Source of the DNA: a bacterium
GTDB taxonomy: Bacteria > CAIWAD01
DNA: 12,482 nt
NCBI GenBank assembly: GCA_030685015.1
Contig: JAUXWS010000005.1
Span: 1 to 12,482 of the forward strand
Direction: 5' to 3'
Part shown: one piece after another, positions 1 to 12,482 of the stretch
How the letters are laid out: each line of letters begins with the position of its first letter
Position numbering within the stretch: position 1 is the stretch's first letter
The notes under the pieces: model-generated
The model's input: the letters and a program-made list of their open reading frames with translations, nothing else
Database searches by the model: none
What the model was told of the DNA's origin: nothing
Position numbers and translations under genes: made by a program

Positions 1-398
1 CGCACGGCGGCGCGCGAGGGCGGCCGCGCGCCCGGCCGGAACGCCCAGACCCGCCGCAGCACGCCGCTGGTCAAATCGAAGCGTCCGCCGCTCAGCTGGT
101 GCCCTGTCTCGGCGAAGTCCAGCAGGCGCTCGATCTCCTCGTCCGTCTCCACCCAATCACCGGCGGTTGTCCGCAAGAAGCTGGTCCAGCTGTCCTCCCG
201 GTAGCGGCTGTAGCGGTCCTGGATGCGCCAGGCTTCCGCCGCGCCCAGGCGCGCCAGCTCGAGGGCGGCGCGGCGCGGGCAGGAACGCAGATGGATCTCG
301 CCGGGTCCGGCGAAGCAGGGGAAGCGGGCCACCCACCCGGATGCGCCCGCCTCCAGCCGCACCTCGCGCAGCGGCTCAGAGGGTGGTGCGGTAGCCAA
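1..398 (-). CDS. apbE: ApbE-family FAD:protein FMN transferase (partial, 3' end off the window)
   Basis: Members of this family move FMN from FAD onto a Ser/Thr of a target protein. About 132 N-terminal codons are present; the catalytic C-terminal half lies beyond position 1. The family is recognised from a GPGEIHL segment (residues 31-37, the place of the usual MGS-PCEIHL), a DRYSRYREDS helix, the E-T-D-E-E-I-E-R-LL helix, and SGGRFDLTSGVLRRVW, which matches the S-G-x-FD-[IL]-T-x-G-x-L motif of ApbE. An in-frame stop at 402-404 limits the start to TTG 398 (GGTGA just upstream, with short spacing) or GTG 362. The TTG start overlaps the DUF3570 gene by 23 bp, suggesting translational coupling. 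No signal peptide is possible in this frame, which is odd because many ApbE proteins are periplasmic lipoproteins. The upstream DUF3570 protein is the likely substrate. Family call firm, start uncertain. Confidence 0.85.
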   Translation of the reverse strand, partial: MATAPPSEPLREVRLEAGASGWVARFPCFAGPGEIHLRSCPRRAALELARLGAAEAWRIQDRYSRYREDSWTSFLRTTAGDWVETDEEIERLLDFAETGHQLSGGRFDLTSGVLRRVWAFRPGARPPSRAAV

Positions 399-1632
399 GA
401 GTCACCATCCAGGCCTGCAGATCGGGCGTCAAGTCCAGGCCGTGCTGGGCCCCCAGTGGCGCGGGCGAGAGGTCGAATCGCTGGCGCATCCAGGCCGGCT
501 TGATCCAGAGCTGGCCCCAGTCGGCCGCGGGCAGGTCCAGACGCAGGGCGAGGGTCCACGAGGTCATGCCCGCCAGGCGCGCATCCGCCGTCAGGTGCTC
601 CGGCAGCGCCTGTGTCGCGGGCCAGCTGTGGGCATAGCCGTCGGCGCGCGACTGGAGGCTCCAGCGCACCTCGGGCCGCACGCGCAGGCCCGGCGCGGCC
701 TCGGGCTTCCACCAGTACTGCAGGTCGGCGGTGGTGGCGCGCACGCCCCAGCTGTCCTGGTAGCGGCGCAGGTCGGCGTGGAGCACGTCGCGGCCCAGGT
801 GGACGGCGTTGGCCCAGAAAAGGGTCCAGCGCGTGCGGGACGCAGGGCGGGACTCATTCAGCCAGGAGACGGGCGCACCGTCGTCGTCCACCAGGCTGAT
901 CCCCTTGTAAGGGTCGGTCAGCCAGCCCCGATCCCGTCCCGCTCCCAGGTTCAGCTGCGTCAGCCAGCGGCGGTTCATGACCTGGGTGATCCCCACCAGC
1001 CCGTCGCGGATCTGCTTGCTCGCCGCGTCACCTGTCGAGACGCGGTCCTGGTAGTCGCCCAAAGGCTCCGGCACGCCTCCCTTGGGCCGAAGGCGGTCCT
1101 GGCTCAGGGAAAGTCCCATGGTCAGCGTGGTGAGGCGCTGGTTGAGGTCCTGGCTGAGCGTGGCGCTGGCGCCCAGGCTGCGGTAGTCCATCTCGAAGGA
1201 GCCGCTCAGGCCCGCGTCCAGTCGCAGGGTCCGCGTCAGCGGCTGCTCCCAGTCCAGGCCGACGGCGTGGCGCTGGTCGCGGAACTCCCGCACGGGCAGC
1301 TCGCCGGGAGCGGCCGAGTAGCCGCGCCCGGACGCGGAGGTGAAGGTCTGGAGGGTGGCGGCGGGCGCCGCCCCGTTGGGACTGGCGCCGCTCATGGAGT
1401 CGAAGCCATAGCGCATTCCCAGCGCCCGCTCCCCGGGCAGGGGCAGGCGCAGGTGGAGGACGGGTTCGACGATGTTGACGCGGCCCTGCTCCTGGTAGAC
1501 AAGAGTCGCCTGTTCGACGCTCAGGCCGGTCAGGTCCAGGGCCTGGGCCTCCGGAGCGCCCAGCAACCGGGATGTGGCCAGGGCCAGCAGGGCGGCGGCG
1601 TTCCGGCCGGCGACAGGGGATGTCAGTTGCAT
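376..1632 (-). CDS. DUF3570 family exported protein, probable outer-membrane beta-barrel and FMN acceptor
   Basis: This 418-residue protein begins with a signal-peptide-like segment (residues 1 to about 31, ending in EAQA). The rest alternates polar and hydrophobic residues in many short strands with aromatic belts (YWWKP, WALRLDL-like strands), as in outer-membrane beta-barrels, and the overall pattern fits DUF3570. Residues 78-84 read DSMSGAS followed by PNGA. This fits the D-x-x-[ST]-G-A-[ST] site at which ApbE enzymes attach FMN; Ser84 would be the acceptor. The ATG at 1632 has a GGGAGG ribosome site six bases upstream that lies inside the glycine codons of the preceding gene, and the two genes overlap by 10 bp. 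Its 3' end overlaps the ApbE gene. The exact function is unknown. A flavinylated outer-membrane electron carrier is my inference from the motif and the neighbour. Confidence 0.87.
   Translation of the reverse strand: MQLTSPVAGRNAAALLALATSRLLGAPEAQALDLTGLSVEQATLVYQEQGRVNIVEPVLHLRLPLPGERALGMRYGFDSMSGASPNGAAPAATLQTFTSASGRGYSAAPGELPVREFRDQRHAVGLDWEQPLTRTLRLDAGLSGSFEMDYRSLGASATLSQDLNQRLTTLTMGLSLSQDRLRPKGGVPEPLGDYQDRVSTGDAASKQIRDGLVGITQVMNRRWLTQLNLGAGRDRGWLTDPYKGISLVDDDGAPVSWLNESRPASRTRWTLFWANAVHLGRDVLHADLRRYQDSWGVRATTADLQYWWKPEAAPGLRVRPEVRWSLQSRADGYAHSWPATQALPEHLTADARLAGMTSWTLALRLDLPAADWGQLWIKPAWMRQRFDLSPAPLGAQHGLDLTPDLQAWMVTLGYRTTL
1381..1401 (-). other. Putative ApbE flavinylation site within the DUF3570 protein
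   Basis: These seven codons encode D-S-M-S-G-A-S (residues 78-84). ApbE targets such as NqrC and RnfG carry D-x-x-[ST]-G-A-[ST], with FMN joined by a phosphoester to the last Ser/Thr. The site sits near the N-terminus of the mature protein and is followed by P-N-G-A. Modification is predicted from the motif only. Confidence 0.6.
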
Positions 1633-1850
1633 CCGCAGCCTCCCCCGCCCACCCCGGCGCCGCCGTGGGCCGTCTCCTTGCTGAAGTAGACGTGTTCGTC
1701 GAGGCCGGCCTCGAGGGCATCGGGCACGAGTCGCATCTCAGGTTCGGCCAGCAGGTCGCGCTCCCAGGGCTGGACGCGCGTCATCACGCAGCCCAGGCTG
1801 CCCAGCCCCGCGGCCAGCAGCAGGCCGCCCAGCACCAGGGCGCGCCTCAT
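1623..1850 (-). CDS. DUF4266 small lipoprotein with Gly-rich, Cys-containing C-terminus
   Basis: This is a 75-residue protein. It opens with a lipoprotein signal peptide (MRRALVLGGLLLAAGLGSLGC) whose lipobox S-L-G-C puts the lipidated cysteine at residue 21. The mature part has the DUF4266 pattern VQPWERDLLAEPEM, then LEAGLDEHVYFSKE, and ends in a glycine run and G-C-G-C-N. The start is the ATG at 1850, which overlaps the TGA of the thioredoxin gene as ATGA; a GAAGGGG ribosome site precedes it. A longer in-frame start at 1901 is rejected because it would bury the signal peptide. DUF4266 genes commonly sit beside DUF3570 and ApbE genes. Function is unknown; the two C-terminal cysteines could bind a metal or exchange disulfides with the neighbouring thioredoxin (inference). 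Confidence 0.88.
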   Translation of the reverse strand: MRRALVLGGLLLAAGLGSLGCVMTRVQPWERDLLAEPEMRLVPDALEAGLDEHVYFSKETAHGGAGVGGGGCGCN

Positions 1851-2398
1851 GGCATGTCCCCTTCCGATGTGGCCGGAGGCGCCGGCTCCGCCAGCAGGCA
1901 CTGGATGAAGGCCTCAAGCTCCGCGATCTCCCCGGGGCGGAAGCCCGTGTGGATGCGGCGCAGCACACCGCGGCGGTCGATCAGATAGGATGTGGGCATG
2001 CCGGGGAGGGTGTAGGCGGCCGCCGCCCCGCCCTGGGGATCGAACGCGACGGGGAAGCTCACCGGTCGACCCGACAGGAAGGCGTCGGCCTTCTTGCGCT
2101 GCTTGTCCACGTTGACGCCCAGGACAGTGAAGCCCCGGTCCCGGAGCCGCAGGTGCAAGGACTCGAGCCAGGGGAAGGACTGGGCGCAGGGGCCGCACCA
2201 GGAAGCCCAGAAGTCCAGCAGCACCACCTGCCCGCGGAACTGCGCCAGGCTGATGGGATCAGCCAAGCCAGGCAGGGCGAGATCGGGGGCCGTCCGGCCC
2301 ACGGCCGCTTCACCGGCGCGGGCCGGCAGCGCGGCCAGCAGCAGGATGGCCAGAAGCGCTCCCCACCAGCGGGAAGCAGGTCGTGCGGAAGGTCGCAT
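1847..2398 (-). CDS. TlpA-like exported thioredoxin-fold protein
   Basis: This 183-residue protein has an N-terminal signal peptide (hydrophobic residues 13-24, likely cleavage after ARA at 28) and a redoxin/AhpC-TSA fold. The active site WCGPC is at residues 67-71 in the frame LLDFWASWCGPC, and the cis-proline sits in GMPTSYLID (Pro135), both hallmarks of TlpA/ResA-type thiol oxidoreductases working outside the cytoplasm. Such proteins reduce or exchange disulfides, for example during cytochrome maturation. Here no cytochrome genes are near, so the substrate may be the DUF4266 or DUF3570 partner (inference). The ATG at 2398 has an AGGAG site seven bases upstream. Its stop overlaps the DUF4266 start. 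It lies 99 bp downstream of the DUF2231 gene. Confidence 0.95.
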   Translation of the reverse strand: MRPSARPASRWWGALLAILLLAALPARAGEAAVGRTAPDLALPGLADPISLAQFRGQVVLLDFWASWCGPCAQSFPWLESLHLRLRDRGFTVLGVNVDKQRKKADAFLSGRPVSFPVAFDPQGGAAAAYTLPGMPTSYLIDRRGVLRRIHTGFRPGEIAELEAFIQCLLAEPAPPATSEGDMP

Positions 2399-2476
2399 CA
2401 GCGTCTCCTTGCTTGTTGCCGGAAGTCACGAACCGCGAGCAAGGAGCAATTCCTCTCCTCCCTGGTTGGAAACCCA

Positions 2477-2492
2477 GCCTGCGCCGGCAGGC
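2477..2492. repeat. Short GC hairpin in the gap between DUF2231 and TlpA genes
   Basis: A perfect 6-bp stem (GCCTGC / GCAGGC) closes a GCCG loop, and a two-base bulge would allow further pairing outward (CAG / CTG). It sits just past the DUF2231 stop codon on the minus strand. There is no T-tract, so it may be a weak terminator, an RNA-stability element or chance in GC-rich DNA. Confidence 0.3.
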
Positions 2493-2497
2493 GCTGG

Positions 2498-3034
2498 TCA
2501 ATCGCTGTCGCCGCCTCGCTCTTTTCGCTGGGCTCCTTCATCCAGGACAGGGCCGGGTGAGGGTCCGGCCGGCAGCTCGTACCCGGCGCGCGCCGCCGGA
2601 GCCTGATGGATGTAGACCAGGTCGCCGCCCGCCTTGCCCGTGCGCAGGGCCAACGCCAGGACGACGATGGACAAGCCAAAGAGGATGAATGGCAACACCC
2701 GTCGAAAGCGTGAACCCAAAGGCAGCAGGGGCAACAGGGTCAAGGCCAGCAGCCCTGCCGCCGCCCAGGCGAAGACCTGGGCCGCTTCCTCATGGGATTC
2801 CAGTGCGGCATGCGGTACCAGGCGCTCCACCCGGTCCTCCTCCCCTTCGCCTGTTCTGATGGCGGCGTAGGAACCCAGCACGATGAGGAACTGCACGAGG
2901 AGGGCGATGAGCCAGGCCGGACGCCCCAGCTTGCCTCTGCCGTCCAGGATGGCCATGAGCAGCAGGAGCAGGGGCATGAGGAGGGCCAGTCCGAGGGGCA
3001 GATGGACGACGGCGGGGTGCAACAGGTCGGGCAT
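2498..3034 (-). CDS. DUF2231 family four-helix integral membrane protein
   Basis: This 178-residue protein has four predicted membrane helices, at about residues 8-30, 40-60, 86-107 and 112-132. The N-terminus LLHPAVVHLPLGLA is the DUF2231 signature, with His6 and His11 at the membrane edge. A conserved HEE occurs before helix 3, and RTGKAGGDLVYIH follows helix 4. The C-terminal tail of about 30 residues is charged and low in complexity. The family has no established biochemical role that I can name; the conserved histidines would be compatible with haem or metal binding and hence transmembrane electron transfer (inference). The ATG at 3034 has a GGAGG ribosome site. It is the first gene of the leftward series and is probably co-transcribed with the thioredoxin gene. 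Confidence 0.85.
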   Translation of the reverse strand: MPDLLHPAVVHLPLGLALLMPLLLLLMAILDGRGKLGRPAWLIALLVQFLIVLGSYAAIRTGEGEEDRVERLVPHAALESHEEAAQVFAWAAAGLLALTLLPLLPLGSRFRRVLPFILFGLSIVVLALALRTGKAGGDLVYIHQAPAARAGYELPAGPSPGPVLDEGAQRKERGGDSD

Positions 3035-3133
3035 GGGGCCTCCACGTTGGGCTGCCCGCCCCTGCGACCGGCAGCGACGCCCAAGTAGGTGATTGACGGC
3101 CCGGCGGGCAATCCGTCATGCGCTACGAGTGGC

Positions 3134-3162
3134 ATCCCATTGCCATTCTACGACTTCGTCAA
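3134..3162 (-). promoter_or_regulatory. Candidate sigma70-type promoter for the DUF2231-ApbE operon
   Basis: On the minus strand TTGACG (3162-3157) is followed after 17 bases by TGGGAT (3139-3134). The -35 box matches five of six consensus bases, but the -10 box matches only three. It lies about 100 bases before the DUF2231 start codon. Promoter consensus for this lineage is unknown, so the call is tentative. Confidence 0.3.
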
Positions 3163-3179
3163 CAACACAGGTCATCCGG

Positions 3180-3202
3180 CGCATGGGCGCGCAACCCATG
3201 CG
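3180..3202. repeat. Perfect palindrome upstream of the candidate promoter
   Basis: Arms CGCATGGG (3180-3187) and CCCATGCG (3195-3202) flank a seven-base spacer. The element lies about 18 bp upstream of the candidate -35 box of the leftward operon and 24 bp from the 11-bp array. It could be an operator for a dimeric regulator or an RNA hairpin; nothing in the window identifies the binder. Confidence 0.5.
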
Positions 3203-3225
3203 ACCCGGGTCCTCGGACTGGCGGG

Positions 3226-3379
3226 GCTGCCCTGGGGTTGCCCGGGGATTGCCCGGGGGTTGCCCGGGGGAGGCCCGGGGGTTGCCCGGGGGAGGCCCGG
3301 GGGTTGCCCTGGTGTTGCCCTGGTGTTGCCCTGGTGTTCCCCTGGTGTTGCCCTGGTGTTGCCCTGGTGTTACCCGGGG
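3226..3379. repeat. Tandem array of fourteen 11-bp repeats
   Basis: Fourteen contiguous 11-bp units fill exactly 154 bp. Units 2, 4 and 6 are GTTGCCCGGGG, unit 3 is ATTGCCCGGGG, and units 5 and 7 are GAGGCCCGGGG. Units 8-10, 12 and 13 are GTTGCCCTGGT and unit 11 is GTTCCCCTGGT. Unit 14 returns to the CCCGGGG form (GTTACCCGGGG), and unit 1 is the intermediate GCTGCCCTGGG. The arrangement (one block of each subtype, plus the alternating GTT/GAG pairs in units 4-7) shows expansion by slippage or unequal exchange. The period is not a multiple of three, so it is not a coding repeat. Confidence 0.96.
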
Positions 3380-3426
3380 CAGCCGTCCAAATCACCTGAC
3401 ACCAGGTGCCTGCCGCCAGGAGGGAG

Positions 3427-3452
3427 CGCGCCCCGACCAGGGCCGGGGCGCG
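3427..3452 (-). terminator. Probable groEL transcription terminator hairpin
   Basis: A perfect 9-bp stem (CGCGCCCCG / CGGGGCGCG) with an eight-base loop lies 26 bases past the groEL stop codon on the minus strand. It lacks a following T-tract, so it may act as a GC-rich stem-only terminator or as a 3'-end stabiliser. Confidence 0.6.
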
Positions 3453-3478
3453 TCAGCGATGTCGATGTCCAGCGGGGC

Positions 3479-5420
<1,942 letters not shown>

Positions 5421-5698: not shown

Positions 5699-6655
5699 AT
5701 GATCAAACGAATCGGATTGGGCTACCTGATGGTGCTGTCGGCGTGCGCACCTGCCCTGGCCGTTCCCATGTCCGGACTGCTCGCCTGGTATCCCTATGAG
5801 GGTGACGCCCAGGATGCCAGCGGCAACGGCCTGCATGGCTCCCCATGGCAGCTCTCCTATTTGCCCGGTCATGCAGGCCAGGCGGCTTGGTTCAATGGCG
5901 ACGACAGCCGCATGGGCATGAATGTGGGGTTCGCACCCGGTGACTGGACGATCTGCGGCTGGGCCTATGTCGAGGTGATCAATTCGGCCTGGACGGACTG
6001 GCAGGACTTCGTCAGTTCCAGCACGCAAAACTTCGCCGTCGGCATTGACAACTGGGACGGCGGCAAGCTGACCCTGTGGGTGGGCGGCGACACGGCCCAG
6101 GATCCGAACCCCGCTCCACTGCAAACGCCCTTCTTCTGGCTCTTCGAACACGACGCCGGCACCTGCCGCATCTGGCGGGACGGCCAGCTGGTGGCCAGCG
6201 TGGCCAGCGGCTATACTCCTGCCTTCCTGCGCACGGTGGGGCAATGGATCGCCGGGGCCGCCTCGCCCATGGACCGCGAACCCATGCACGGCTGGCTGGA
6301 CGAGATCTGCATCTACAATCGTGTCCTGGACGACGCGGAGAAAGCGGAACTCCTTGGTGGCGGCGGCACGGTGGAGGCTGTGGACCTGCCACGGACCATC
6401 GGCTTGCTGGAGGCTTGGCCCAATCCCTTCAATCCCTCGACGACCTTGAGCTTCGACCTGGCGGACCCGGCACGGGTGCAGGTGCGGTTGCTGGACATGC
6501 AGGGACGCGAGGCGCTCCTCGTGTACGACGGGTGGCTGAGTCGCGGTGCCCAGCGGTTCAACGTGGAAGCGGGCGGCATGGCCAGTGGCATCTACATCGC
6601 CCAGGTGTCCGCCAACGGACAGCATCAGGCCATGAAGCTGATCCTCTTGCGCTGA
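5699..6655 (+). CDS. Secreted LamG/concanavalin A-like domain protein with T9SS-type sorting domain
   Basis: This 318-residue protein has a signal peptide (residues 1-21, cleavage after ALA). A jelly-roll LamG-like domain follows from about 26 to 225, opening with LLAWYPYEGDAQDASGNGLHG, a common start for LamG domains, and closing with HGWLDEICIYNRVLDDAE. The C-terminus (about 236-318) begins with WPNPFNPST and ends with ASGIYIAQV...MKLILLR, the Por/type IX sorting domain that directs export across the outer membrane and attachment or release. The ligand or enzymatic activity is not apparent; LamG domains bind carbohydrate or protein. The ATG at 5699 has an AAGGGGG site. It runs divergently from groESL, and no clear promoter was found in the shared upstream region. 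Confidence 0.87.
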   Translation: MIKRIGLGYLMVLSACAPALAVPMSGLLAWYPYEGDAQDASGNGLHGSPWQLSYLPGHAGQAAWFNGDDSRMGMNVGFAPGDWTICGWAYVEVINSAWTDWQDFVSSSTQNFAVGIDNWDGGKLTLWVGGDTAQDPNPAPLQTPFFWLFEHDAGTCRIWRDGQLVASVASGYTPAFLRTVGQWIAGAASPMDREPMHGWLDEICIYNRVLDDAEKAELLGGGGTVEAVDLPRTIGLLEAWPNPFNPSTTLSFDLADPARVQVRLLDMQGREALLVYDGWLSRGAQRFNVEAGGMASGIYIAQVSANGQHQAMKLILLR

Positions 6656-7006: not shown

Positions 7007-7048
7007 GGACAGTCCACAGACTGTCCACGGACTGTCCATGGACAGTCC
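7007..7048. repeat. Double palindrome cluster, family B
   Basis: Two adjacent palindromes share the heptamer ACTGTCC/GGACAGT. The first (7007-7026) has arms GGACAGTC and GACTGTCC around CACA. The second (7029-7048) is a continuous 20-bp perfect palindrome centred on CCATGG. The four half-sites could pair in alternative ways. They resemble REP-type elements, but no RAYT transposase is in the window. Confidence 0.8.
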
Positions 7049-7907: not shown

Positions 7908-8074
7908 GGGTCCCTCCCCGATGTCAGGCATTTCTCGCAGGCCGCAAGGGCCACGCACCTGTTTGAACCCGAACACCTTGGCGCGCGCGAATCTCTCGCC
8001 ATTGCCGCCTTCACTTGGTAAATAGGGCCGCACATCGTCCCTACCCGCTGGACAGAATAGCATTGGAGCCGACC

Positions 8075-11000
8075 ATGAATGCCCCCCACCCCTTGAGGCA
8101 GGCGACTGTCCTGCTGACCCTTATATCACTGGCCGCGGGCGCGTTGTCCCTGCGCGCCAAGGCCGCTCCGGAGAGACCCACCGGCCAGGACGAGCTGGAG
8201 GCCGCCACCCTCCTCTACCTGCAGCTGAAGCAGGACGGGGGCGAGATCCCCGCCTGGCTCTTCGACCAGATCAATCCCCCGCAGCCCGCGGGCGGCGCGC
8301 GCCAGGGCGGCGACACCCAGGCCGAGGCGGTGGCCATCCCCTTCAGTCCGGGCGGCACCTACACGGACCCGGGCACGACGGCCGGCTACGCCAACGACTA
8401 CGACTCCAACGTGGCGGCCTCCTTCTGCCAGATGGGCACCTTCTTCACCAGCTCCTTCGGCTCGGCGGACGTTTTCTACACTTTCACCCTGCCCGGCATG
8501 TACACGGTGACAGCCGACATCTGCGAGGGCGGCACCTGGGACTCGGCCCTGGGCATCATTGACAGCGACGGCACGCTGGTGGCCTACAACGACGACGGCG
8601 GCGGCTGCACCGCCTCCCTCCGCTCCCGCATCGCCAACTGCTGCCTGCCGGCCGGCACCTACTACATCGTGGTGGACGCCTACAGCACGGCCACCGGCAC
8701 CTACACGCTCAACGTGCAGTTCGGCAGCGCGCCCTGCGTCATGCCCTGCGACCTCTACACGCAGAACATCCTCACCCTCAACGCGCCCGGCACGATCACG
8801 GGCAGCACGGTGGGCGCCCCAGGAGTCTACGCCGGCGCCGGCGGCGACGCGGGCATCGACATCGCCATCCCCCATGCGGCGGAGTGGAACTTCGACGCCT
8901 GCGTGGCGGGGACCGACTACGCGGCGGACATCTACCTCTTCACGGCCAACCCCTGCGCGGGCGGCACCCTCATCGCCTCCAACACCACCGCCACCTGCGC
9001 GGCGGCGCCGGCCACCACGGCCCGCCTGCTCAACATCGGCCTCCAGGCCGGGACCTACCACCTGCTCGTGGGCCATACCGCCGCGGTGGAGGGGGCCTTC
9101 GCCATCAACGTGTTCGAGACGACCCCCGCCCGTCCCTTCGCTGGCGATCCCGACGCCTTCGGCTACGTCTGGCGCAACAGCCTTGACCCCAACGGCCCCG
9201 ACTTCGACTGGGTGGAGATCTCCCAGGTGGGGACGCCCGTGCCCCTGGCCAGCGGCAGCAGCGTCTACGGCCCCGTCGACCTGGGCATGAACTTCCCCTT
9301 CTACGAAAGCACGCACTCCACCTGCTACGTGTCGTCGGAGGGTTTCCTCTCCTTCGACGCCCTGGCCAGCTCCTACCTGACCAACGCCACCATTCCCTCC
9401 GCCGCCCTGCCGCAGAACATCGTGGCCGGCTTCTGGGACGATCTTTCCTTCACGGCGGGGGTGGGGCAGGCCTACACGTGGTGGGACGCGGCCAACCAGC
9501 GCTTCATCCTCGAGTACAAGGACTTCACCAAGACGGCCGTGCTCACCACCTTCCAGATCATCCTGCACCAGAACGGCAACATCCTGGTGCAGTACCTCAA
9601 CACGCCGGAGATCTACCTCAACTCCGCCACGGTGGGCATCGAGGACGGCGCCGGGGCCCGTGGCCTGCTGGTCAACTACAACAACACGGGCGGCGCCCTG
9701 TGGGACGGCATCGCCCTGCAGATCACACGGCCCGTGGGCGACGTGGTGGGCCCCTCCATCATCCACACACCCCTGGTCAGCTCCGAAGACCTGGGTCCCT
9801 ATTCCATTTTCGCCAACATCAGCGACCTGGAGCACGAGGTGGCCGCAGCCAACCTCGTCTACCGGGTCAACGGCGGCACCTGGAACACCGTGCCCATGGT
9901 CCCCGACACGCCGCCCTCCTTCACGGCGCAGATCCCGGCGCAGACGCCCCCCGCCACCGTCAACTACTACCTGCAGGCCACGGACACGGCCGATCCGTCC
10001 AACACCACCACCACCGCCACCTGGACCTTCAGCGTGCAGGACTACACCCTGCCGCCCAGCGGCCTGAGCGCCACCGACGGCGTGGTGGGCGGCACCACCG
10101 TCACCTGGTCGCCGCCGGCCTGGCTGCTGCTGAACGGAGATCCCGGCCCGGAGCCGCTCTTCGAGGACTACCTGCCCGACCACGCGACCAAGGACGGGGC
10201 CTGGGCGGCTTGGCAGGCCGACCATGAGGCCTGGGTGGCGGCGGGCCAGGTGGCCAACCGCGCCTTCCTGGGCTACAATGTCTACCGGGGCGGCCAGCTG
10301 GCGGGCACAGTGACGGGTCTGAGCTTCACAGACAACCTGTCCAACGGCTCCCAGCCCGGGGTCACCTACAGCTACACGGTGCGGGCCAGCTTCACGGCGG
10401 GGGAGTCCGCCCCCTCCAACAGCGACACGGGCTGGTGGTCGGCGGGCCAGACCAGCGGCGGACCCGACACCTACGGCTACATGTGGTTCAATTCCAACCA
10501 CGACCAGGGTCCGGCCTTCAACTGGATCGATATCTCAGGTGTCGGCGCCCAGATCGCAGCACCCACGGACGACGGCTTCACCGGGCCTTACGACCTGGGC
10601 TTCGCGTTCCCTTTCTATGAGAACAGCTACTCGACCTGCTACATCGCCTCCAACGGCTTCATCACCTTCGGCACTGGCAACGGCACCCTGACCAATCAAA
10701 ATCTGCCCAGCCCCACCATCCCCAACAACCTGATCGCTGGCTTTTGGGACGACATGGCGCCGCACTACGCCGGCGCTTCGATCCACTACTATGCGGACAC
10801 GGCCAACAACCGCTTCGTCGTCCAGTACCACGTGCCGGGGCTGGGCGGCGTGGCACCCTACATCTACTTTGATTTCCAGATCGTGTTGACACCCAACGGG
10901 GCCATCCTTGTGCAGTTGCTCAACGTCAACGAAGTCGACATTTCCCAGGCGACCATCGGCATCGAGAACGCGATGGGCACCATCGGCCTCACTTACAATT

Positions 11001-12482
11001 TCGATGGCACCGGCGCCCCCATCACCGACCAGATGGCCATTCGCTTCCTGCCCCCCCAGGGTCCGGAGATCACGCACACGCCGCTGACTTCCGTCGAAAC
11101 GGAGCTGCCCGGCCCCCATGTGGTGGAGGCTGAGATCGTCAGCGAGGAGGGGGTGGTGGCCTCCGCCCAGGTGGTCTACAGCGTCAATGGCGGGGCCAAC
11201 CAGACGGTGGCCATGGTCCACGGCGCCGGGAACACCTGGACTGGAGACATCCCCCACCAGGACGCGGGCGCCAACGTCTCCTACCGCATCGAGGCGACGG
11301 ACGACCAAGGCCACACGCGCATGACCCAGACCTGGACCTTCCAGGTGGTCAGCTACCAATGGCCGCCCCTCAACCTGTCGGCCACGGACGGCCTGCTCCT
11401 TTCCACGCTGGTGACGTGGCTGCCGCCCGTCAATCCGGGCCTGCTCGCCGCCCGCTTCGGCGACGAGCTGCCCGCCAACCAGGACGAGGGCGTCGAGCGC
11501 CTCATGGCTCAGGGCCTGTCCAAGGAGGAAGCCCTGGCCGAGTGGGTGGCCCTCTTCCAGGAGGCGGAGCGGGTCTTCATCTCCTACCGCGTCTACCGGG
11601 ACGGCGTCCTGGCAGGTACGACCACGGGAACCAGCTTCATCGACAACCTCAACAACGGTGCCGAGGCCGAGGTGGTCTACACCTACACGGTGCGGGCCCT
11701 CTTCACGGCGGGGGAATCCACCCCCTCCAACTCCGACCAGGGCTCCTGGTCGGCGGGCCAGACCTCGGGCGGCCCCGACTCCTTCGGCTACACCTGGATG
11801 AACTCCGGCGCCGCGGGCGGGCCGGTCTTCGCCTGGACGGACATCTCAGGCCTGGGGACGCAGATCGCCTCACCCACCGATGACGGCTTCACCGGCCCCT
11901 ATGCGCTGGGCTTCCCCTTCCCCTTCTATGAGAACAGCTACAGCGAGTGCTTCATCGCCTCCAACGGCTTCCTCACCTTCGGCACGGGCAACGGCACCCT
12001 GACCAACCAGAACCTGCCCAGCCCCACCGTCCCCAACAACCTCATCGCCGGGTTCTGGGACGACATGGCGCCGCATTACGCCGGGGCTTCGATCCACTAC
12101 TACTCCGACACGGCCAACAACCGTTTCATTGTGCAGTACCACGTGCCGGCCTATGGCTCCGTGGCACCCTATGTCTTCTTCGACTTCCAGATCGTGCTCA
12201 CGCCCAACGGAGCCATCCTGGTGCAACTGGCCAACGTGAACGAAGCCGACATCTCCCAGGCCACCATCGGGATCGAGGACGCGGCGGGTCTGAGTGGCCT
12301 GACCTACAACTACAACGGCACCGGCGCCCCCATCGGAGACGAGCTGGCCATCCGCTTCACCTACCCGGTGGGGCCGCTCATCGCCCACACGCCGCTGCCC
12401 AGCATCGAGGCGGAGCTGCCCGGCGGCTACGCGGTCAACGCCCAGATCACCAGCGAGCTGGGCGTGGCCTCGGCCGCGGTGA
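8075..12482 (+). CDS. Giant modular exported protein (PPC-like, FWDD beta-sandwich, Ig and FN3 modules), 3' partial
   Basis: The frame is open from ATG 8075 (GGAG about seven bases upstream) to the window edge: 1469 codons without a stop. A signal peptide spans about residues 1-31. Residues 95-220 form a pre-peptidase C-terminal (PPC)-like domain (ADVFYTFTLPG, YNDDGGGC, AGTYYIVVDAY), and a related domain follows at about 221-350. A module of about 438 residues then repeats: a beta-sandwich with FGYxW, SNGFxTFG, AGFWDD and ATIGIE; an Ig-like domain starting I-x-HTPL; and an FN3-like domain with LSATDG...VTW.PP...Y.VYR.G. The first module starts near residue 357, the second near 796 and the third near 1233, where the protein is cut. 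Similar architectures occur in secreted proteases and surface proteins of FCB bacteria; a sorting domain is expected beyond the window. No catalytic domain is seen in the part present. Confidence 0.9.
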   Translation, partial: MNAPHPLRQATVLLTLISLAAGALSLRAKAAPERPTGQDELEAATLLYLQLKQDGGEIPAWLFDQINPPQPAGGARQGGDTQAEAVAIPFSPGGTYTDPGTTAGYANDYDSNVAASFCQMGTFFTSSFGSADVFYTFTLPGMYTVTADICEGGTWDSALGIIDSDGTLVAYNDDGGGCTASLRSRIANCCLPAGTYYIVVDAYSTATGTYTLNVQFGSAPCVMPCDLYTQNILTLNAPGTITGSTVGAPGVYAGAGGDAGIDIAIPHAAEWNFDACVAGTDYAADIYLFTANPCAGGTLIASNTTATCAAAPATTARLLNIGLQAGTYHLLVGHTAAVEGAFAINVFETTPARPFAGDPDAFGYVWRNSLDPNGPDFDWVEISQVGTPVPLASGSSVYGPVDLGMNFPFYESTHSTCYVSSEGFLSFDALASSYLTNATIPSAALPQNIVAGFWDDLSFTAGVGQAYTWWDAANQRFILEYKDFTKTAVLTTFQIILHQNGNILVQYLNTPEIYLNSATVGIEDGAGARGLLVNYNNTGGALWDGIALQITRPVGDVVGPSIIHTPLVSSEDLGPYSIFANISDLEHEVAAANLVYRVNGGTWNTVPMVPDTPPSFTAQIPAQTPPATVNYYLQATDTADPSNTTTTATWTFSVQDYTLPPSGLSATDGVVGGTTVTWSPPAWLLLNGDPGPEPLFEDYLPDHATKDGAWAAWQADHEAWVAAGQVANRAFLGYNVYRGGQLAGTVTGLSFTDNLSNGSQPGVTYSYTVRASFTAGESAPSNSDTGWWSAGQTSGGPDTYGYMWFNSNHDQGPAFNWIDISGVGAQIAAPTDDGFTGPYDLGFAFPFYENSYSTCYIASNGFITFGTGNGTLTNQNLPSPTIPNNLIAGFWDDMAPHYAGASIHYYADTANNRFVVQYHVPGLGGVAPYIYFDFQIVLTPNGAILVQLLNVNEVDISQATIGIENAMGTIGLTYNFDGTGAPITDQMAIRFLPPQGPEITHTPLTSVETELPGPHVVEAEIVSEEGVVASAQVVYSVNGGANQTVAMVHGAGNTWTGDIPHQDAGANVSYRIEATDDQGHTRMTQTWTFQVVSYQWPPLNLSATDGLLLSTLVTWLPPVNPGLLAARFGDELPANQDEGVERLMAQGLSKEEALAEWVALFQEAERVFISYRVYRDGVLAGTTTGTSFIDNLNNGAEAEVVYTYTVRALFTAGESTPSNSDQGSWSAGQTSGGPDSFGYTWMNSGAAGGPVFAWTDISGLGTQIASPTDDGFTGPYALGFPFPFYENSYSECFIASNGFLTFGTGNGTLTNQNLPSPTVPNNLIAGFWDDMAPHYAGASIHYYSDTANNRFIVQYHVPAYGSVAPYVFFDFQIVLTPNGAILVQLANVNEADISQATIGIEDAAGLSGLTYNYNGTGAPIGDELAIRFTYPVGPLIAHTPLPSIEAELPGGYAVNAQITSELGVASAAV
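9143..12482 (+). repeat. Internal gene duplication: modules of about 1314 bp
   Basis: Module 1 covers about 9143-10456, module 2 about 10457-11767 and module 3 from about 11768 to the edge. Modules 2 and 3 are much closer to each other than to module 1. For example, the 42 residues beginning FGTGNGTLTN (codons from 10667 and from 11978) differ only by Ile/Val at one position, with many synonymous changes in the DNA. Confidence 0.9.

Follow-up and report, generated by a model that had tools for sequence, protein, structure and literature searches.

What does a compact set of envelope redox genes do for an uncultured bacterium, and does the membrane protein gene at the head of the set belong with it? 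These questions are raised by a stretch of 12,482 bases (hereafter the window), which is the complete contig C5 of a 3.61-Mb genome from an uncultured bacterium. Its minus strand encodes, from position 3034 down to position 1, a DUF2231 membrane protein, a TlpA-type thioredoxin, a DUF4266 lipoprotein, a DUF3570 protein, and an ApbE flavin transferase, all assigned by Pfam above the curated cut-offs (Table 1). We consider it probable, if only modestly so, that this operon specifies an envelope electron-transfer path ending in a covalently flavinylated outer-membrane barrel. The four-gene core is a known system and the operon of the window is a lineage variant of it with DUF2231 added. The points that are new here are computed ones, namely the barrel architecture of DUF3570, the placement of its flavin, an ApbE lacking a leader, and a four-helix DUF2231 protein with conserved histidines.

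The core was described by Méheust et al. (2021, eLife, PMC8238504). DUF3570 was identified as an ApbE substrate, and the Chlorobium luteolum protein was flavinylated by its own ApbE, a modification lost only upon replacing the serines of both of the two [S/T]GA[S/T] motifs reported in the family. A CXC motif was noted in DUF4266. DsbD was part of 285 clusters, in most cases alongside DUF3570, DUF4266, and a thioredoxin; a DsbD-less combination of ApbE, DUF3570, thioredoxin, and DUF4266 accounted for another 316. The authors proposed a hybrid thiol/flavin pathway whose function was uncertain. The window has the same four families in one operon, including a DUF3570 protein with the first flavinylation motif, an adjacent ApbE, a DUF4266 protein with CXC, and an exported thioredoxin-like protein. 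The original prediction had taken these four genes to be a flavinylation cluster of unestablished physiological role, which agrees with the published account on both counts, and the tendency of DUF4266 and DUF3570 to neighbor ApbE also stands, except that this association has been in print since 2021. The operon of the window differs in having DUF2231 added upstream; the text of the paper contains neither DUF2231 nor the word barrel. Within the literature that we searched, PMC8238504 was the only paper to treat DUF3570 and DUF4266, and no flavinylation paper mentioned DUF2231.

A survey of other genomes indicates how general this arrangement is. DUF3570 is present in all three relatives from the family of the window (two of the same genus and one of a second genus) and in 7 of the 145 genomes searched as relatives. 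The window protein used alone as a query retrieved no loci from relatives; an alignment of five sequences gave 80 loci in named genomes, the majority from Gammaproteobacteria and others from Krumholzibacteriota, Zixibacteria, Eisenbacteria, Acidobacteria, and Manganitrophus. Together with six others and the window, and after removal of duplicates, these made up 83 loci, which were scanned with profiles built from the window proteins. The scan yielded 81 DUF4266, 68 ApbE, and 85 DUF3570 open reading frames (ORFs), with TlpA in most loci, and the order TlpA, DUF4266, DUF3570, ApbE holds in most of the set. In a second phylum (that of genome G029), 29 loci read for ~1.5 kb on each side contained DUF4266 in every case, TlpA in 26, ApbE in 19, and DUF2231 in none, the last three counts being lowered by contig ends. 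From the recurrence of the gene order and the constant pairing of DUF4266 with DUF3570, we can conclude that the core arrangement is not due to chance. Beyond the core, a two-component pair and DsbD are the partners that recur; the sampled neighbors downstream of ApbE had no Pfam family in common.

The end point of the proposed path is the DUF3570 protein. Its AlphaFold2 model, built from 59 sequences (predicted local distance difference test score [pLDDT] 93.1, predicted template modeling score [pTM] 0.86), consists of 16 strands, which are connected by short turns at one end of the barrel and by long loops at the opposite end. A Foldseek search of the PDB returned outer-membrane porins and receptors (the Occ family, PfeA, and AlgE) at E ~1e-9 and a TM-score of ~0.4, and the fold class is therefore secure, whereas sequence searches found no solved homologue at E up to 1. 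The even strand number, the turn/loop pattern, and a leader-like N terminus are likewise those of an outer-membrane barrel, which upholds the earlier claim of an outer-membrane protein. With the N terminus placed in the periplasm, the long loops should face outside. Using an orientation and register derived from parity and hydropathy, we found that strand residues conserved at ≥90% occupy the lumen-facing register with four exceptions, and that the conserved loop residues are extracellular except for two calls within loop 309-316, where the alignment is poor.

The first flavinylation motif reads D78-S-M-S-G-A-S84, in which S81-G-A-S84 is canonical. A second candidate, T98-S-A-S101, matches in position but is not an exact [S/T]GA[S/T]. 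Across the 83 loci, G82 is kept in 81, position 84 is Ser or Thr in all 83, and position 101 is Ser in 79. S84 is predicted to lie at the outer end of strand 3 with its side toward the lumen, which would place the flavin in the outer vestibule, and S101 (T-S-A-S-G) is a positional candidate for a second flavin site. Two loci (L014 and L015) encode a divergent type of DUF3570 with the motifs DxISAAS and GVTSAT together with an ApbE that has a leader, and may represent a Chlorobium-like branch.

In the mechanism that we favor, DUF3570 would enter the outer membrane as a 16-strand barrel carrying the flavin in its lumen near the cell-surface side, and the flavin would pass electrons to an acceptor on the cell surface or beyond it, for instance a metal ion. 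An outside acceptor is suggested because conservation falls on the extracellular half of DUF3570. Porin-cytochrome conduits such as MtrCAB combine a barrel with multihaem cytochromes. The DUF3570 system resembles them in that electrons would cross the outer membrane through a barrel, but it is not a member of the MtrCAB group, as it has no multihaem cytochrome and FMN (flavin mononucleotide) would sit on the barrel itself. If this is true, many mostly uncultured bacteria would possess a haem-free electron route to the surface in which a flavin barrel replaces the porin and the multihaem cytochromes. The model also opens the role of DUF3570 to experiment, since it specifies which serine is flavinylated, where in the lumen this residue is predicted to lie, which way it faces, and which protein is likely to reduce it.

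How the flavin is attached depends upon where ApbE acts. Leaders were scored on the longest possible reading frames, and a second criterion was added because most DUF3570 leaders escaped a hydropathy cut-off set at 2.0. Leader-like stretches were found in 61/64 DUF4266, 64/69 TlpA, and 68/83 DUF3570 proteins, but in only 12 of 68 ApbE proteins, and most of these 12 represent a core beta strand ending in the conserved F-x-A-M-A-S-P-C motif. Two ApbE proteins with plain leaders come from the loci with the divergent DUF3570 type (L014 and L015). Judged from sequence, then, the operon ApbE is leaderless in the window and in nearly all relatives, even though its predicted substrate is exported. Relatives keep the motifs DLGGxGKEYAVD, NFGGD, ATSGD, and HIL..TG, and their enzymes thus look active; the ApbE genes that follow DUF3570 in genomes G002 and G003 encode 314 and 304 amino acids, respectively. 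With no leader on ApbE, FMN attachment is probably cytoplasmic, and flavinylation before export is the simplest reading; ApbE would attach FMN to Ser84 of DUF3570, and perhaps to Ser101, before the protein leaves the cytoplasm. The passages of PMC8238504 consulted here do not discuss a leaderless ApbE for the DUF3570 set. In Klebsiella, a flavin transferase that similarly lacks a signal peptide is cytoplasmic and has a soluble fumarate reductase as its substrate (reviewed in PMC12052999); that substrate stays in the cytoplasm, whereas DUF3570 is a predicted exported outer-membrane barrel. A leaderless ApbE consequently poses the question of whether a protein already bearing FMN can travel through the export machinery and still assemble in the outer membrane. 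The alternative is that another, exported ApbE supplies the flavin to DUF3570. The source genome has two other ApbE genes, neither of which fits as the remaining part of the operon ApbE, and the ApbE on its contig C43 has an N-terminal hydrophobic segment.

Concerning the source of the electrons, all four family genomes encode a full-length DsbD away from the operon; in the source genome, DsbD_TM lies on a separate contig (C59). No DsbD was found within the window upstream of the set, and the stretch past ApbE lies beyond the contig end. The part of the cluster that is seen therefore differs from the published DsbD systems, in that its DsbD is unlinked. Several Proteobacteria have DsbD immediately after the operon or flanking it. 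A path from DsbD to TlpA to DUF4266 to DUF3570 is the best-supported one, with moderate strength. The unlinked DsbD would carry electrons across the inner membrane to the CxxC of TlpA and from there to the DUF4266 lipoprotein. The tail of DUF4266 is flexible and Gly-rich, and its terminal CGC could extend from the periplasm into the barrel to reduce the flavin. This portion of the mechanism draws upon gene order, motifs, and the published model (PMC8238504).

The gene that sets the window apart is DUF2231. It lies beside the core in only four genomes including that of the window, which are all of the family genomes that carry DUF3570 (immediately adjacent in 3/3 of the genus of the window), and its adjacency spans two genera at ~36% identity. 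It was absent beside the core in all 79 other loci, even with a broad DUF2231 profile, as well as in the 29 loci of the second phylum, which rules it out as a general member of the set and marks it as a lineage-specific addition. Thus, the link between DUF2231 and the core, which the original prediction had suggested might be new, is conserved but restricted to one small uncultured lineage: it is real within the family and absent from the other loci read. GroES-GroEL genes lie upstream of DUF2231 in both the window and G002. The DUF2231 stop and the TlpA start codon overlap in G001, an arrangement that speaks for a single transcript there; in the window, the two genes are separated by a 99-bp gap with no overlap. 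We also considered whether DUF2231 is an unrelated neighbor with its own transcript beside an ordinary four-gene flavinylation set. The gap in the window, the absence of DUF2231 from the 79 and 29 loci, and a gene intervening in G003 all favor this idea, but we regard it as rather unlikely given that the adjacency persists in all four family genomes with DUF3570 across two diverged genera and includes the overlap in G001.

The DUF2231 model is a four-helix bundle (AlphaFold2 pLDDT 90.4, pTM 0.81). Among 30 sequences, H6, G62, and G136 are invariant, H81 is kept in 29, and H11 in 27, and all five residues cluster at one end of the bundle. By the positive-inside rule (basic segments 32-40 and 107-113, acidic segment 63-83), we infer that this histidine end faces the periplasm. 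Elsewhere, DUF2231 occurs in fusion with a cytochrome c domain (PSCyt1) or in proteins with a weak YHS match. Against solved structures, the DUF2231 profile scores best with the N-terminal helices of three cytochrome bd subunits (E 0.014), and the weak alignment with CydA puts H6 on the N-terminal histidine that binds haem b595 in the Escherichia coli protein (H19). We make no claim that DUF2231 is a relative of CydA, the hhalign probability being 10%, compared with 0.7% when a reversed control was used and 0.1% with DsbD. A fold search returned only generic four-helix bundles, among which no haem protein stood out. A haem or quinol role for DUF2231 is possibly correct and is a lead rather than a result.

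A precedent for such a role is provided by DUF4405, which has been demonstrated to bind haem b and has six helices and four central histidines (PMC11334425). Both families are small multi-helix membrane proteins with conserved histidines encoded beside apbE, but DUF2231 has only four helices with the histidines at one face of the membrane, and its haem binding is conjectural. Together with the conserved residues at one end of a confident bundle, the PSCyt1 and YHS associations, and the CydA alignment, this precedent could indicate that DUF2231 is a dedicated membrane electron donor, i.e., a periplasm-facing haem-b/quinol module that replaces DsbD. We consider this unlikely, because the CydA match is weak, the fold matches are uninformative, an unlinked DsbD is present in every family genome, and the DUF2231 link is limited to one family. 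A fuller version, in which a cytoplasmic ApbE acting before export, a lipoprotein whose glycine-rich arm inserts its CXC tip in the barrel and reduces the flavin at the cell surface, and a DUF2231 haem/quinol module feeding from the quinone pool instead of from DsbD together form an FMN-barrel conduit, seems to us distinctly doubtful. In the mechanism that we favor, DUF2231 would instead be a lineage-specific inner-membrane accessory, perhaps a periplasm-facing haem-b/quinol module that supplements DsbD.

Several observations weigh against a flavinylated barrel fed by a thiol relay. The flavin on the window DUF3570, the flow of electrons, and the co-transcription of the genes are deduced from sequences and models, not from experiment, and the window ApbE is a fragment. 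A flavin near the outer rim would be far from the periplasm, such that its reduction requires an unproven reach of DUF4266. For DUF2231, the case for a haem consists of its histidines and the weak CydA match (E 0.014; 10%), and its structural matches are the generic bundles described above. In G003, from the second genus, a divergent LuxR-type gene lies between DUF2231 and TlpA (L012:697-1239; its product has a hydrophobic N terminus). Lastly, G002 (L011:3900-4470) lacks the TlpA start and CxxC as well as the whole of DUF4266 while keeping DUF3570 and ApbE; the TlpA remnant runs in frame into DUF3570, and no DUF4266 was found elsewhere in that genome. Either the thiol relay may be dispensable or the assembly, which has low coverage (5x), may be faulty. 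The gap in G002 would also suit a different division of labor, in which TlpA and DUF4266 would maintain the thiols of the barrel or handle its metals, and the flavin uses another periplasmic carrier or takes electrons inward from a surface donor. Such a role would accord with the divergent MsrP and MsrQ genes for methionine-sulfoxide repair that flank the DUF3570 operon in six gammaproteobacterial loci (L046, L056, L062, L063, L068, and L093), with the two-component pair beside the set in ~30 loci, and with the presence of the DUF3570 set in Candidatus Manganitrophus genomes. We assign it a low probability, since almost every set includes TlpA and DUF4266, complete with CxxC and CXC motifs, and DsbD is part of the operon in several genomes.

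The gene calls and junctions of the window bear out the prediction of five minus-strand genes, four of them overlapping. TlpA and DUF4266 share an ATGA (1847-1850), DUF4266 and DUF3570 overlap by 10 bp (1623-1632), and DUF3570 and ApbE overlap by 23 bp (376-398), provided that ApbE starts at TTG 398. Reading from the sequence, we placed the DUF4266 start at ATG 1850 rather than at the mechanically called GTG 1901. For TlpA, the NCBIfam ResA-like match falls below its cut-off, and PF13899, the thioredoxin model named in PMC8238504, scores only E 0.21. ApbE is cut by the contig end, and the fragment spans profile positions 19-97 of 266. This truncation, the lack of an export signal on ApbE, and the unlinked DsbD were not part of the original prediction.

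Table 1. Features of the redox operon and its upstream border in the window.
Feature	Position	Strand	Evidence
DUF2231 membrane protein, 178 aa	2498..3034	-	Pfam PF09990, 31.1 bits, cut-off 26.4 (weakest of the five)
TlpA/ResA-like exported thioredoxin, 183 aa, WCGPC, cleavable signal peptide	1847..2398	-	PF00578, 81.8 bits; PF08534, 77.1 bits
DUF4266 lipoprotein, 75 aa, lipobox LGSLGC, C-terminal GGGGCGCN (CXC)	1623..1850	-	PF14086, 79.1 bits
DUF3570, 418 aa, predicted 16-strand outer-membrane barrel	376..1632	-	PF12094, 268 bits, cut-off 25
ApbE flavin transferase, N-terminal 132 aa only, without signal peptide	1..398	-	PF02424, 41.1 bits, fragment
11-bp tandem repeat, 14.3 copies, unit GGGGTTGCCCG, groEL-DUF2231 intergenic	3223..3379	.	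Tandem Repeats Finder

No promoter or terminator scored above chance in positions 1-3700, and no Rfam element was found within the window. The 11-bp repeat lies at the upstream border of the operon. The G003 contig likewise has a tandem repeat upstream of DUF2231, in this case a different 12-bp unit, GGTGCCAGGGAC, with which the contig starts (L012:1-120). A short 11-bp tandem repeat, GGACAGTCCAC, occurs in 3.8 copies at 7007-7048 of the window, in a region without clear genes. Elsewhere in the window, positions 5699-6655 encode a secreted laminin-G-like protein whose match to a type IX secretion C-terminal sorting domain is slightly below the cut-off, while positions 8015-12481 contain a 1,489-aa open frame, cut by the contig end, that has long near-identical internal repeats and resembles a large secreted surface protein.

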